A DNA stretch of 64,000 nt. Origin: Chloracidobacterium thermophilum B (GTDB lineage: Bacteria; Acidobacteriota; Blastocatellia; Chloracidobacteriales; Chloracidobacteriaceae). The translations under genes were made by a program, and so were the position numbers. Where the stretch lies: the NCBI RefSeq assembly GCF_000226295.1, contig NC_016024.1, positions 1,471,501 to 1,535,500 of the forward strand, read 5' to 3'. Of this stretch, positions 35,220 to 43,138 are shown piece after piece; the stretch's first letter is position 1, and each line of letters opens with the position of its first letter. The notes under the pieces are model-generated. The model saw nothing but the letters and a program-made list of their open reading frames with translations, was not told the DNA's origin and did not search any database.

Positions 35220-37355
35220 CTACGGCTTAACAACCAACATAAACTTTTCACCCGTGGTGTGCAGCGCCGCATCAAGCACCCGGACGGCGATGAGATATTC
35301 CCCCGGTGACAGATTCCGATACACCAGCGTAAAAACCTCACGCGGGGAGTCCAACACCAGGTCATCCGGGTAGATCAAAATCCACTCGCCACCATCAAAG
35401 GACACTTCGGCCGACTTGAGCGGTGAGGTGGCCGTCACTACTTCAACTCTGACCTTTGCTTCCTTCGTCGAAATCTCTGAAGGCAAAAAGGTTATCTTCG
35501 GCAATGCATTCGTAATCACAACCGGCGAGAGGACCTGCGAAGAAGCCAGCGCCCACGCCGGCGGATTGGAAGCGGCATCGCTGACTTCAAGCTGGAATTC
35601 ATAAATGCCGTCCGGCAGCATCTCCGGGGAAATGACGAAAAACGGGTTACGCAGCTTTTCCGCCAACGGCTTCCAGTTGGACTGTCCACGCAACCGATAG
35701 GACAGCCGGTAGGTCAGCGTGTCGCCATTTTTGTCCTCTGCCTGCCACTGAAGCGTTCGCGCTCCGCGCTGGAACACCTTGCGCGGTGGCTGATTGGCGA
35801 TGATACCGAACTGGACCGGGTCCAAGCCGGAACTCATCACACTCGGATCAGGCGGCGGCACGACAGCTTCCTGCAAGGCCACGCCGACCGGCAGAACGGT
35901 GAACGAGGTAATGACCGGTGCCAGATTACGCGGCAGGTAAGCCACCCGGACGGCCATCACTTCGGCCCCTTTTTTCAGACGCAAACGCCACTGCAGAAAC
36001 CGTCCCCGTGGACTGGTGACGACACCTCCCGGTGCCGGCATTTCAGCCGACCAGTCACTCCACAGCGCCCCCGGCAACTGGGTGTTTCCGGTCCGGGTCT
36101 GTACAAAGACTTCCCCTTTACCCTCCACATGGATACGACCCCACGCCTCAACTACCGCTTTAGCATCCTGAACCGCTGAGGTAAACACCCCTTCATCCTG
36201 CGCCGTCGGGCTGAGGCGGTAGAGTTTGGCCAAACCACTGGTCACGACATACAGGGTCTCCCCGGCGCCGGCTTCCGCAGCGGCAATGCGTTCCTCCTCG
36301 ACAGCGCCAAACAGGGTGGATTGTCCTTCCGGCCCAACGAAAAAGAGCCGGCCCTGTCCGCCGGTCGAACTGCTGCCAAGTCCTACGAGAACGCCATCCC
36401 GCCACCGGAGCAGAACAGTGGCCGTGTCGCTGCTTGTCCAGAGGGCCGTTTGACGGCCATCTTCACCGAGTCGGTAGAGCGTTGTGCCGCCTGAAGCCGG
36501 GCGCAGCGGTGTGCCGCCACTGCTTTCCCCTTCACTGGCAATTACTTCCGCCGGCGTGCTCCCGGTGCTTCCACCGCCGCTCGCCTTCAGCTCACCGATA
36601 CCCAAGGCAAAAACAGAACCGTCCGGCATGGGCACCAGCCGCCGAATCTCACGGGAGGGTGCATCGAACACCGCCGTCACACGCCCATCGGCTATGCGCA
36701 CGACCAGCCCGCCCGGATCGGTCCCGGCCCACACCGCGCCATCCCGCGCCACCATCAGGCTTGTGACATTGGATTCATCTGTCGTCCAGAGTGCCTGCAC
36801 CGACAGCCCACCACGTGACAAGGTAAAGACACCGCCCTTCCCACCGGTGGCATAGACGAGGGTGCCATCGGGCAGACATCGCATGTCCCAGATGTATTTC
36901 TCCGGCGGGTCATACACGACCCGGAAGCCTGGTTGGCCGGCGGTCAACTGGTAAATTTTTCCGTCCGGGGAGGTGGCGGCAAAAATAGCTCCCTGGCCGT
37001 CGGTGGCCAGAGCCGTCACATCCAATTCGTCAAAATCGGCGACCAGGGTCAGCGCCCCCTCAGCCGTCGCCCGAAACAACCTGCCATCGTGGCCCGTGCC
37101 GACATACACCTCGTTGCCGACAAGCAGGCTGCAGAGCGCAAAGGGCTGCTGGGTATCCCCCACGAGTTTGGGCGTGGGCACGACGCGCAAAATGCCATTA
37201 TCAGACACTGATAGCCCACTGAGGCGACCCGCAAGGTAGTCTTCCTTGCGCACGCATTCCCAGAACGCCGTGCCTTCCGCCTGCAGCGGCAGCGTCCACC
37301 AACAGAAAAGCGCCAGGGCAAGCACGCTCTTGGTCAGAGGTCGTTGTATCAGCAT
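35220..37355 (-). CDS. Secreted beta-propeller protein with C-terminal Ig-like domain
   Basis: The 711-residue protein has a signal peptide (ALALFCWWTLPLQA, cleavage about 26). Repeated blade-like motifs follow (VYVGTGHDGRLFRAT, GAIFAATSPDGKIYQLT, AVWAGTDPGGLVVRI, VLVGLGSSSTGGQG), as in two-component-type or NHL propellers. The C-terminal region (about 520-711) is Ig/fibronectin-like (LQWQAEDKNGDTLTYRLSYRL, IYEFQLEVSDAASNPP). The true start is 37355; its ATG overlaps the acyltransferase stop by 7 bp, so the pair is coupled. Open frame upstream of this is antisense-like and not coding. Ligand unknown. Confidence 0.72.
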   Translation of the reverse strand: MLIQRPLTKSVLALALFCWWTLPLQAEGTAFWECVRKEDYLAGRLSGLSVSDNGILRVVPTPKLVGDTQQPFALCSLLVGNEVYVGTGHDGRLFRATAEGALTLVADFDELDVTALATDGQGAIFAATSPDGKIYQLTAGQPGFRVVYDPPEKYIWDMRCLPDGTLVYATGGKGGVFTLSRGGLSVQALWTTDESNVTSLMVARDGAVWAGTDPGGLVVRIADGRVTAVFDAPSREIRRLVPMPDGSVFALGIGELKASGGGSTGSTPAEVIASEGESSGGTPLRPASGGTTLYRLGEDGRQTALWTSSDTATVLLRWRDGVLVGLGSSSTGGQGRLFFVGPEGQSTLFGAVEEERIAAAEAGAGETLYVVTSGLAKLYRLSPTAQDEGVFTSAVQDAKAVVEAWGRIHVEGKGEVFVQTRTGNTQLPGALWSDWSAEMPAPGGVVTSPRGRFLQWRLRLKKGAEVMAVRVAYLPRNLAPVITSFTVLPVGVALQEAVVPPPDPSVMSSGLDPVQFGIIANQPPRKVFQRGARTLQWQAEDKNGDTLTYRLSYRLRGQSNWKPLAEKLRNPFFVISPEMLPDGIYEFQLEVSDAASNPPAWALASSQVLSPVVITNALPKITFLPSEISTKEAKVRVEVVTATSPLKSAEVSFDGGEWILIYPDDLVLDSPREVFTLVYRNLSPGEYLIAVRVLDAALHTTGEKFMLVVKP

Positions 37356-38338
37356 TGATTGTTTCCTGGTGACAAAAGATTGGAACCGTTCGGGACAGTT
37401 ACCGGAGCCAAGTCCGGTTGGGGTTGGCTTTTCCAGCGCCGGTGAATCCACAGCCACTGGTCCGGGTAGCGGCGGACCACAGCTTCCCAGCAGCGTGTCA
37501 GGCGGAGCGTGTTTTCCCGGATGTCGAAGGCTTCGTCCGCCGTCCGTACCAGCGGCACCGGTGGCTCGAACACCAGCCGGTGCCGTCCCCGCCGGGCATC
37601 CCATACGAGATACCCCGGAACAACCACCGCCCCCGTCCGCCGCGCCAGGCGTGCCACAAGCGGCGACGTGCAGGCCGGACGCCCAAAAAACGGGCAGAAA
37701 ATACCGTGCTGGGGCTGGACGTGCACATCGGCGAGAATCCCCACCGTCTCCCCCCGCCGGAGGCGGACCACCAGCCCGCGCAAGTCGCGGTGCTTGGATA
37801 GGAGGCGGTTGCCGCTCGCCGTCCGCCAGCGTGTGATCAGATGATCCACAAGGGGATTGTCTATGGGGCGCACGAGAATGTTGAGCGGATGCCCGTAAAG
37901 CGCATGTGCAAAGGCGCTGAGTTCCCAAGCGCCGAGGTGTCCGGTAAAGAAAATCACGCCCCGTCCCTGCGCCTGAGCTGCGGCAAAGTGCTCAAACCCT
38001 TCGTATTCAACCACTTCGTGGACATTCCCGGGATGCAGCTTCGGAAACTGGGAAAACTCGCCGAGCAGCCGCCCCAGGTTTGTGATGCACCCGCGGAGCA
38101 ACTGCCGCCGCTCCCGTTCCGACAGTTCCGGGAAAGCCAGGGCCAGATTGTCAGCACCCACCCGCCACAACCGTGGCAGCACACAGGCCAGAAGCCTTGC
38201 CAGAAGCATGCCGCCGCACAGGGCCCACCGCCGGGGCAGGCGTCCCAGGCCCCCCAACAGCCCGGCCACCAGAGCGGCTTCGGCCCGCTGCCGTACGGTC
38301 GGAGATGGATTGACAGGTGCACGTTCCATCGTTAGCAT
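37349..38338 (-). CDS. LpxL/HtrB-like lysophospholipid or lipid A acyltransferase
   Basis: The 329-residue inner-membrane protein has the HxxxxE-type catalytic motif in FTGHLGAWELSAF (His and Glu), followed by LVRPIDNPLVDHLI and DVHVQPQHGIFCPFFGRPACTSP. These match the LpxL/HtrB family, which adds secondary acyl chains to lipid A. A hydrophobic N-terminal helix is at about 20-45. Start 38338 is supported by GGGGAG 4 bp upstream; tRNA-Cys lies immediately upstream. It is translationally coupled with the propeller gene downstream. Confidence 0.9.
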   Translation of the reverse strand: MLTMERAPVNPSPTVRQRAEAALVAGLLGGLGRLPRRWALCGGMLLARLLACVLPRLWRVGADNLALAFPELSERERRQLLRGCITNLGRLLGEFSQFPKLHPGNVHEVVEYEGFEHFAAAQAQGRGVIFFTGHLGAWELSAFAHALYGHPLNILVRPIDNPLVDHLITRWRTASGNRLLSKHRDLRGLVVRLRRGETVGILADVHVQPQHGIFCPFFGRPACTSPLVARLARRTGAVVVPGYLVWDARRGRHRLVFEPPVPLVRTADEAFDIRENTLRLTRCWEAVVRRYPDQWLWIHRRWKSQPQPDLAPVTVPNGSNLLSPGNNQC

Positions 38339-38391
38339 CGTCTCCCCAACGTGATCGGCGCGGCATTGCCGTTCACACCAGGTGTCGGTTT

Positions 38392-38466
38392 GGTGGCGTA
38401 GCCAAGTGGTAAGGCACGGGTCTGCAAAACCCTTATTCGTCGGTTCGATTCCGACCGCCACCTCCA
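38392..38466 (+). tRNA. tRNA-Cys (anticodon GCA)
   Basis: Acceptor arms GGTGGCG (38392-38398) and CGCCACC (38456-38462) pair fully. The anticodon loop CTGCAAA carries GCA at 38424-38426, the T loop is GGTTCGATTCC, and CCA is encoded at 38464-38466 after discriminator T. The anticodon stem has one C-T mismatch at its first pair. It lies divergent from the acyltransferase gene. Confidence 0.95.
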
Positions 38467-38533: not shown

Positions 38534-38860
38534 ATGGCGTCAGATTTCTTTGTCGGCACGTCGTGTACGCTGATCATCACGGTCATGCTGCTGGCGTTGG
38601 CGCGTATCTCAGCAGTTCGCGTCAAAAAGGGAGCCAGTTTGTATCACGCTTCCATCCAGCCGTTGATCTTTATGTCCGGGGTGCTGTTTCTGCTGTACCT
38701 GGTCAACCTGGGGCTGATTCACCTGCTGACGGCCGCCGGTGTGCGGGGCGATCTGGCACTCTACACAGCGCTGCTGCTCGACGACATCCTGGCCTGCACC
38801 TTTCTGCTCACGATGTTTCGCCGCAACGCCCTTCGCCAGGCGGCCAAAGCCCTCAAATGA
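38534..38860 (+). CDS. Small polytopic membrane protein of unknown function
   Basis: The 108-residue protein has about three hydrophobic segments (roughly 7-27, 42-66 and 75-94), with basic residues between and at the C-terminus (RRNALRQAAKALK). It follows the tRNA-Cys by 67 bp and converges on the diadenylate cyclase fusion gene, ending 9 bp before it. No family is recognised. The composition is strongly membrane-like, so a real gene is likely. Confidence 0.6.
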   Translation: MASDFFVGTSCTLIITVMLLALARISAVRVKKGASLYHASIQPLIFMSGVLFLLYLVNLGLIHLLTAAGVRGDLALYTALLLDDILACTFLLTMFRRNALRQAAKALK

Positions 38861-38869
38861 CGTGCCGGA

Positions 38870-40798
38870 TCATCTGGTGCTTCCCTGTTCGGAACGCCGG
38901 TTGATCACCTCATCCGGGCTGACACGCACCACTTGCACCTGCTCAGCGAGGTCCGGCGGCGGCAGTACCACCACTTTCCGCCGGGGGGGACGCTCAGAGA
39001 CAAGGTCGGCACCAACCGTCGCCTGAAAATCACGCCCCCGGAGCTTTTCCACAACGGACTTGGGCCCCTCTACCGTCACCTCCAGCCGGGTGGGTGGGGT
39101 GCCCGGTGTATCCAGAATCACATCCAGACGGCGGCGCAGGATGACGGGACGAATCGTGACCTTCACTTCGACTTCCTGCGCTCCGACAATCTCGATGCGC
39201 GGGTCCTTGACATCCACCTTGTAGCGTTCCGTAAACGAACGGTCATGGACGTTGAGCCAGATGGTCTCTGTGCCCACGGACGGCAGGGCATAGACCTGCG
39301 CTTCGGGGCCGCGCAGCATTGTCGTGGCAGGCACAACCTGATACTCGGCAATTTCCCGGTCCACCGGCAGAGTGCCACGGAAGTTCGGCTTGATGTCCAC
39401 CTGCCGATAAACCTGCCGTTCCAGATTCAGGGTCAGTCGGGACGGTTCGATTTCCAGGATTTCCACCCCGGCCGGCTTCTCGATACGAGCCTCTTCCCGC
39501 AGGAGAATGACCCGGTCGCCGGGATTTTTGCCCGCCAGTGAGACGGTAATCACGAACGATTCGGGCCGCAGGCGCTCGACGACATCACGGGGGCCGCGTA
39601 CGCGCAGGGTCACTTCCTGCACTTCGTGGATGTTGGCAATGACCAGGTCCTCACGTAACCCCTGATAGTTGACGGGCACCCCGCGCAGAACAAAGGGGAT
39701 GGCATCCTGTTTGGTCGCCGACAGCCACAGGGCGCTGGTCATCACAGCGGCGATAAGCTTGAGCGTGAAGTTTTCAACAACCAGGGCGCGGACTTTTTCA
39801 CCAATCCAAATCAGCCAGTGGCGTCCCTGCTGCCAAACGGCGGCTGGATTCAAGGCCCCGCGCTCGCTGATTCGTGACATCTGGCGTCCATTGGCAATAA
39901 TGGGCGTCCCTGTCGCCGGCGTTTCACTCGTTTCACTGGGAGTATCGAGGGTGACAAAATCCACCTCCGAAGGCTCCACCAGACGACGGCGGCGGCGCAC
40001 CGGAGTGGCACTGTGGGTTGTCGTCGCATTCAGCGCCTTGGAGAGCAACTGGCGGACGGCTTGGATTTCAAGCCCACGTTTGATGTGCCCTCCTTCGACA
40101 CACGACACCATTCCGGTTTCTTCAGAAACCACAATGACAAAAGCATCGCTTTCCTCCGTGATGCCAATTGCCGAACGGTGGCGCGTCCCGGTGTCTTTGG
40201 ACAGCCGTGGATTGAGGGTCAGAGGCAGGAAACAACTGGCGGCAGCAATTCGATCCTGGCGGATGATGACCGCTCCGTCGTGGAGCGGCGCTTCCGGGTT
40301 GAAGATGTTGATGAGCAGGTCGTAGCCGAGAACCGCATCCAGCCGGACTCCCCGTGAGATGTACTCGTCCAGGTTGTCCTGCCGCTCGAAAACAATCAGG
40401 GCACCAGTTTTGTTGGCCGCCAACGTGGCGACGGCCAGCAGGACATCCTCATACTGCACCACCGACAGCTTGCGCGTCCGCCAGCCCAGATGGGACAAAA
40501 ACCGGATGTTCCGGCCAAAGTTGGCAAAGGCCAGGCGAATTTCGTTCTGAAACAGCACGACAACGGCAAAGCCAACGTAAAGCAGGCTGTGGCGGATGAC
40601 GAACTCCAACGTCGGCAGGTGCAGCCAGTGTGAGACCTGATACAGGAAGGCGACGATAGTGATCCCACTGGCAACCTGTATGGCGCGCGTCCCCTTGAGG
40701 AGCTTCAGCACCTCATAGACGACCAGAAAGACGAGGAGCAGATCGATGCCCGTCGCAAACCAGGATTGACCAAGCCAGTGCATTAACGTCGTCACCAC
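38870..40798 (-). CDS. CdaA-CdaR fusion: membrane diadenylate cyclase joined to YbbR regulator domains
   Basis: One 642-residue frame holds two proteins that are usually separate. The N-terminal part is CdaA-like: about three membrane helices (12-33, 43-62, 68-86), then a DAC domain with DGA (174-176, LHDGAVII) and RHR (206-208, GTRHRSAIGITEESDAF), the motifs of c-di-AMP synthesis. After an Arg/Pro/Thr-rich linker (about 265-335) there is a fourth membrane helix (342-362) and repeated YbbR domains (VPVNYQGLREDLVIANI onward). That is the layout of the CdaR regulator, which sits outside the membrane. No frameshift or stop separates them. Start is GTG 40798 or ATG 40783. Confidence 0.92.
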   Translation of the reverse strand: MVTTLMHWLGQSWFATGIDLLLVFLVVYEVLKLLKGTRAIQVASGITIVAFLYQVSHWLHLPTLEFVIRHSLLYVGFAVVVLFQNEIRLAFANFGRNIRFLSHLGWRTRKLSVVQYEDVLLAVATLAANKTGALIVFERQDNLDEYISRGVRLDAVLGYDLLINIFNPEAPLHDGAVIIRQDRIAAASCFLPLTLNPRLSKDTGTRHRSAIGITEESDAFVIVVSEETGMVSCVEGGHIKRGLEIQAVRQLLSKALNATTTHSATPVRRRRRLVEPSEVDFVTLDTPSETSETPATGTPIIANGRQMSRISERGALNPAAVWQQGRHWLIWIGEKVRALVVENFTLKLIAAVMTSALWLSATKQDAIPFVLRGVPVNYQGLREDLVIANIHEVQEVTLRVRGPRDVVERLRPESFVITVSLAGKNPGDRVILLREEARIEKPAGVEILEIEPSRLTLNLERQVYRQVDIKPNFRGTLPVDREIAEYQVVPATTMLRGPEAQVYALPSVGTETIWLNVHDRSFTERYKVDVKDPRIEIVGAQEVEVKVTIRPVILRRRLDVILDTPGTPPTRLEVTVEGPKSVVEKLRGRDFQATVGADLVSERPPRRKVVVLPPPDLAEQVQVVRVSPDEVINRRSEQGSTR

Positions 40799-42709: not shown

Positions 42710-42922
42710 TTTCAGCTCCCTTACATTACCCCACACTTTGGTACCTGTCATCCCGGACCCGGCCACCCACTGTTTGCTGTGCCTATGCACCGCCGCTGGT
42801 TGACCAACCCATGACAGCGTGGCTATATTCCCGCATCACCCACAACCGTATGGCGTAATACACTTTGCGTCACCGGTTTGTTTGCATTCATTGCGCACTC
42901 CAACACTCTGAGGACCTTGGCC

Positions 42923-43138
42923 ATGCCCGGTGGAACGAACGAAGTCATGCGCGACTTCTTCATCCGCGTCATTGGGAATACCCCCGAAGAACGATTCATT
43001 TACGTCATCCGCGCCCAGAATGCTAAAGCAGCCCTGAACCTCCACATCAACAACCTTGGCGATCGTCCCTGTGTCGTCCTCGATGGGCTGACCGGTGAAG
43101 TCCTGGAGCGATACAAAGTGGACTCCAAGGGACGCTAG
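42923..43138 (+). CDS. Small hypothetical protein (71 residues)
   Basis: The 71-residue protein starts MPGGTNEVMRDFFIRVIGN. It alternates short beta strands and helices (FIYVIRAQNAKAALNLHINNLG, CVVLDGLTGEVLERYKV) and looks like a compact alpha/beta fold. GAGG lies about 10 bp before the ATG. It is followed 33 bp later by a strong terminator. No family is recognised. An upstream in-frame ATG at 42878 is less likely because it has no ribosome binding site. Confidence 0.6.
   Translation: MPGGTNEVMRDFFIRVIGNTPEERFIYVIRAQNAKAALNLHINNLGDRPCVVLDGLTGEVLERYKVDSKGR

Follow-up and report, generated by a model that had tools for sequence, protein, structure and literature searches.

A single reading frame joins the diadenylate cyclase CdaA and a CdaR-type YbbR part in the Chloracidobacteriaceae

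The fusion gene and its surroundings

The window analysed here is a stretch of 64,000 nucleotides from the genome of Chloracidobacterium thermophilum B (NCBI RefSeq assembly GCF_000226295.1, contig NC_016024.1, positions 1,471,501 to 1,535,500 of the forward strand). One uninterrupted frame on its minus strand begins as a membrane-bound diadenylate cyclase and continues into the layout of CdaR, i.e., a single membrane anchor and, after it, YbbR repeats. A first-pass annotation of the window had described a single open frame with a DAC domain, a linker, a fourth membrane helix and YbbR repeats, and we recovered it at exactly 38870–40798. The features are as follows, in window coordinates and residues of the encoded protein:

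38870..40798, minus strand: cdaA-cdaR fusion gene, 642 aa, GTG start, no internal stop
40553..40762, minus strand: N-terminal membrane domain of the CdaA_N type, residues about 13–82; marginal PF19293 match at residues 18–87
40085..40435, minus strand: DAC diadenylate cyclase domain, residues 122–238; PF02457, E 6.6e-42, with matching solved CdaA structures
40271..40279, minus strand: DGA catalytic motif, residues 174–176 (D174-G175-A176); in 10/10 family translations
40175..40183, minus strand: RHR motif, residues 206–208 (R206-H207-R208); in 10/10 family translations
39779..40039, minus strand: linker, residues 254–340 (~87 aa), arginine-rich at its start and containing a TPxxxTP stretch; from the alignment of ten fusions
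39962..39964, minus strand: codon 279, GTG in the window, ATG or GTG in 9/10 fusions; putative internal start
39707..39778, minus strand: fourth membrane helix (CdaR anchor), residues 341–364; hydropathy peak at 339–357
39425..39679, minus strand: YbbR repeat 1, residues about 374–458; PF07949, 23.6 bits
39155..39400, minus strand: YbbR repeat 2, residues about 467–548; PF07949, 19.7 bits, below the cut-off of 22.3
38909..39094, minus strand: YbbR repeat 3, residues about 569–630; PF07949, 22.8 bits

The cyclase half belongs to the CdaA class. With the curated NCBIfam profile TIGR00159 (diadenylate cyclase CdaA) the fusion scored 230.1 bits (cut-off 188.8), whereas the profiles of other cyclase classes all stayed below theirs (DisA 43.8 of 201 bits, CdaS 137.7 of 225, CdaM 120.1 of 225). 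Solved CdaA structures matched this half as well, the best being 9g69 over residues 18–247 (E 1.9e-45). Both catalytic motifs had been reported as intact and were found so, at the residues given earlier. Of the three N-terminal helices in the first-pass annotation, hydropathy above 1.5 returned two (residues 9–31 and 64–90), besides the later helix at about 339–357 and a peak inside the DAC domain; the full set of three is nevertheless favored by the CdaA equivalog score and by the CdaA_N match (E 3.9e-5). The latter is marginal in the window protein, at 24.2 bits with a cut-off of 23.8; two of the ten family members exceed the cut-off and the other eight score 18.9–23.0 bits.

The three stretches of the YbbR part together reached 42.1 bits (E 1.1e-10), and scored singly two of the three units exceeded the Pfam cut-off. 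The YbbR structure 2l3u was matched weakly, with E 0.1 for the whole protein and 0.047 for the part alone. The fourth helix resembles the CdaR anchors of relatives in which the two genes are split. A structure prediction of the fusion from four sequences had a mean pLDDT of 36.3, and contacts between the helices are not supported by this model.

We searched the genome of C. thermophilum B (3.695 Mb, two contigs) with profiles for further components. The single DAC place lies in the fusion frame and no second one was found; YbbR matches likewise occurred inside the fusion frame only, with no free CdaR, in a search where YbbR was weak (best 22.8 bits against 22.3). We hence found no separate copy of either half that could do the job. 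The PgpH-type membrane domain PF07698 had no match in this genome, and of its two DHH proteins one is RecJ (TIGR00644, 438.1 bits, above cut-off) and the second, a stand-alone DHH-DHHA1 protein, comes closest to NrnA (125.6 bits, below the cut-off of 350). A GdpP-like protein was therefore not seen in the genome.

Some neighboring frames deserve mention. Beside the fusion gene, on the opposite strand, window positions 38534–38860 (plus strand) hold a 108-aa frame that had no Pfam or NCBIfam match, was 85–97% identical in three relatives of the genus and 60% in G251, and appears to encode a small conserved protein, membrane-like by eye. An 86-aa frame at 42878–43138 (plus strand) was 85–98% identical over 78–86 residues in three genus relatives. 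The 902-aa frame at 35220–37928 (minus strand) overlaps the LpxL-like gene at 37349–38461 by 580 bases, and relatives match about 700–770 of its residues only; its true start therefore probably lies further in.

Distribution of the fusion and gene order in relatives

We found DAC in open frames of 642–685 aa in all ten genomes that we compared from the family Chloracidobacteriaceae, which cover four genera; seven of them, including that of the window, belong to the genus Chloracidobacterium. Counted from plausible starts the proteins measure 637–658 aa, and each exceeds the Pfam cut-offs for DAC and YbbR, so that related genomes do carry the fusion in one frame, as the first-pass annotation had led us to ask. 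Whole-protein YbbR scores in the family were 36.6–52.7 bits; in G157 the whole-genome search at E 0.001 gave no YbbR match, while the whole protein is above the cut-off. Three of the ten (L048, L049 and L050) are 78–79% identical over residues 1–634. The first-pass annotation had also warned of a sequencing error hiding a stop or frameshift. Such an error in sequencing or assembly is refuted by the same frame in 10/10 genomes of the family, with three of them present as public assemblies too, and we give it practically no weight.

Outside the family the two halves are encoded separately. In a sample of 247 genomes from the phylum Acidobacteriota, DAC was present in 195 and YbbR in 192; the best DAC place was fused in five of these 195, all of them family members, and not fused in the other 190. 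The class Blastocatellia gave the same picture, with DAC in 153 of 162 genomes and, among the 149 listed with frames (a count that leaves out the four DAC genomes G355, G380, G297 and G257), ten family fusions and 139 others without one. These fusion counts refer to the best DAC place of each genome, and genomes with two places are often represented by one only (e.g., G075, G086, G104, G110). Three long frames were considered as further fusions and rejected: for the DAC frame of G221 (1290 aa) cdaR lies in another frame, for that of G205 (552 aa) YbbR lies in a different, 240-aa frame, and in G368 (480 aa) cdaR occupies a frame of its own. The nearest outgroup is a second family of this order; its members G252 and G253 have separate genes whose open frames are 35 and 39 bases apart. 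G255, also of this order, has a 258-aa CdaA frame with no CdaR match within 9 kb (L079, G255:C14:5000-14000). Relatives with two separate genes, to which the first-pass annotation had pointed as evidence against a genuine fusion, thus exist, but those seen all lie outside the family; they therefore date the fusion and do not refute it.

At the 14 split loci that we compared, cdaA and cdaR are neighbors on the same strand in every case, and in nine of them the first possible cdaR start is at most two bases from the cdaA stop or overlaps it. With stop and start nearly touching or overlapping, one small change would be enough to create a fusion. A tree of the cyclase part from the ten fused and 14 split loci placed the fused proteins in one clade (support 0.998); the sister of this clade had a support of 0.093. 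These comparisons are most simply explained by a single in-frame merger of adjacent cdaA and cdaR in the ancestor of the family, which the distribution, the single clade and the shared linker support.

Fusion of neighboring genes is common and often neutral. The merger may accordingly have been a neutral one, fixed by descent, in which the YbbR part acts as before and the fusion carries no regulatory meaning; genes that nearly touch in 9/14 split loci fit this account. Against it, the fusion has been kept in 10/10 genomes from four genera with a linker of conserved length, and TPxxxTP in 9/10, which suggests function. We regard a purely neutral merger as unlikely, though it has to be taken seriously.

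We also located glmM in searches with the GlmM of C. thermophilum B. A frame for it adjoins cdaR in 9/14 split loci and in the additional locus L080, and none was found in L078 from the same genus as L080. The split loci without an adjoining GlmM are G227 (at a contig end), G211, G197, G114 and G243. In five loci scanned with the NCBIfam GlmM profile the downstream match exceeded the cut-off in four and fell below it in G124. At fused loci a GlmM frame was found in 0/6. The window's own genome has a sole GlmM match above cut-off, at C1:267079; some 1.24 Mb separate it from the fusion at C1:~1.51 Mb. Read from gene order, then, the first two genes of cdaA-cdaR-glmM have become one in this family, and the third is not beside them. 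Because several split genomes are also without an adjoining GlmM, the merger and the absence of glmM are not tied to each other.

The c-di-AMP riboswitch RF00379 was detected in two of the ten family genomes, the only two larger than 8 Mb, and in none of the seven genus members. Its sites are L075 (G051:C28:86607-86801) and L076 (G063:C4:24216-24388).

The linker and a putative internal start

The linker is the least conserved part of the protein. In the alignment of the ten fusions 9 of its 87 positions are invariant, compared with 84 of 136 in the DAC domain. Pairwise dN/dS values, which are rough since several dS exceed 1, were 0.01–0.10 for DAC (five pairs), 0.07–0.13 for helix 4 plus YbbR (four pairs, the fifth being saturated) and 0.10–0.46 for the linker (five pairs). 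Hence the linker is translated and under purifying selection, i.e., constrained though loosely.

Between the RHR motif and the anchor lie 139–144 residues in the fusions. When the CdaA tail and the CdaR tail, the latter taken from the first possible cdaR start, are added up for each of the 14 split loci, the sum is 73–140 residues, and 130 or fewer in 13 of them. The fusions thus stand at the upper end of the split range and not far outside it, as a neutral joining of two existing tails would have it. TPxxxTP occurs in the linker of 9/10 fusions, and its first TP and last proline are invariant in 10/10. A script search of the 14 split loci also returned it once, in the tail of the G189 CdaR, and it is therefore not a mark of the fusion alone; the motif may have come from the CdaR side or have arisen by chance.

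A long and poorly conserved linker (about 87 aa) could also be the place where the fusion, translated whole, is cut after membrane insertion, which would restore an ordinary two-protein system. No cleavage site is evident in it, and the reading frame has been kept across four genera. We consider processing of this kind quite improbable.

Alternatively, one gene might give two products, if translation also began at codon 279 and yielded a free CdaR-like membrane protein, so that the ratio of the two halves would not be 1:1. Nine of the ten fusions have ATG or GTG as codon 279, which is one of only two alignment columns with ATG or GTG in all seven genus members. Five of these seven have Shine-Dalgarno-like pairing ahead of it of -5.6 to -5.9 kcal/mol, similar to that of several main starts. 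Pairing is weak in the nearest relative G157 (-2.6 kcal/mol) and in G096 (-3.1), the three other genera gave 0.4, 0.4 and -3.5 kcal/mol (pairing is absent in G251, at 0.4), and a serine codon takes this position in G051. Moreover, 12–16% of all codons pair equally well, even in the five better cases, and synonymous change is not consistently reduced in the linker (dS 0.36–1.80) relative to the remainder of the gene. These data argue weakly for initiation at codon 279, which we regard as possible. As a start-type codon has been kept in 9/10 linkers, a separate CdaR product is possible too and the 1:1 ratio is not assured; as an account of the whole system, we rate two products from one gene as improbable.

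Proposed operation and relation to known systems

In CdaA, c-di-AMP is made by DAC domains that pair. By analogy with this chemistry, two protomers of the fusion would pair their DAC domains and form c-di-AMP from two ATP. Three helices would anchor the protein with the DAC domain in the cytoplasm, a cytoplasmic linker would lead back to the fourth helix, and the three YbbR units would lie outside the inner membrane, a topology modeled on published CdaA and CdaR. The fourth helix might then pack on the cyclase helices and tune their pairing or activity, whereby the external part would regulate its own cyclase with a built-in 1:1 stoichiometry. We propose that the protein is a natural single-polypeptide CdaA-CdaR fusion whose YbbR part regulates its own cyclase in cis and at 1:1, and put the probability of this reading at roughly 0.7. 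The single-frame fusion and the intact motifs of the first-pass annotation are thereby confirmed; its external sensing, cis action and fixed stoichiometry stand as proposals. A further-reaching version, in which a three-gene module has become a one-protein transmembrane receptor-cyclase, control has shifted to a YbbR part that works in cis from outside, away from the cytoplasmic partner GlmM with its departed gene, and the start at codon 279 tops up free CdaR to adjust the ratio, appears to us very improbable.

Contacts of this kind are described for the separate proteins. According to a 2023 review (PMC10243994), CdaR and CdaA touch via membrane helices and the YbbR part of CdaR lies outside; the Firmicutes proteins have the same domains in the same order as the fusion, YbbR outside and DAC inside. 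The review also reports that CdaA and CdaR are fused in some streptococcal strains (A5LQF8, E1M7C3, V8IIN0), where the helix of CdaR is predicted to touch the first helix of CdaA. The first-pass annotation's statement that cdaA and cdaR are separate adjacent genes in Firmicutes therefore holds as a rule, with these strains as exceptions. The Firmicutes operon cdaA-cdaR-glmM consists of separate genes and includes glmM, whereas here one polypeptide is encoded and glmM is elsewhere in the genome.

The streptococcal proteins likewise unite CdaA and CdaR in one polypeptide, and the architecture is thus already in print, which limits its novelty. They differ, by the description in the review, in being reported from some strains, in contrast to 10/10 genomes of a family in another phylum. 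We infer a separate origin because none of the 190 other genomes with DAC in the phylum sample is fused. What appears new is a second fusion, apparently independent, in another phylum, family-wide and with no glmM beside it at the loci scanned, and the merger of CdaA and CdaR is now placed outside Firmicutes. Our literature search, of partial coverage, returned nothing on Chloracidobacterium together with c-di-AMP, and the matches listed included none on Chloracidobacterium with diadenylate cyclase or YbbR. Within Acidobacteriota the split cdaA and cdaR are homologous to the halves of the fusion, with 43–57% identity for CdaA and 24–35% for CdaR; they are two genes in 14/14 loci and in L078, L080 and L082, and one gene in the Chloracidobacteriaceae.

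The DacA-YbbR pair of Chlamydia likewise has three helices in DacA and one in YbbR. As described for this pair (PMC12422730), both proteins are needed, YbbR being required for full c-di-AMP synthesis; the pair is bicistronic, with two proteins of which YbbR is limiting, and a fusion would remove this limitation. In S. aureus, by contrast, an insertion in ybbR raised c-di-AMP according to PMC11520302, so that the reported sign of the CdaR effect on CdaA differs between the two organisms. Two further papers also touch on this effect: one on Leptospira describes the CdaR of some Gram-positives as a negative regulator (PMC12974146), and one on Borrelia cites co-expression in B. subtilis as raising c-di-AMP (PMC8316131). 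The amounts of two separate proteins can vary apart from each other, whereas the family-wide fusion fixes their ratio unless the internal start works. The fusion is therefore a natural construct for testing the role of the external part, and not a surprise of kind.

Plasmid records were searched with the fusion as query as well; 30 matched and none covered 80% of the query. On a Rossellomorea plasmid (L077, CP128836.1 396911-403570) cdaA and a CdaR-family gene are separate and overlap by 4 bases, and genes for DHH and DHHA1 adjoin the pair.
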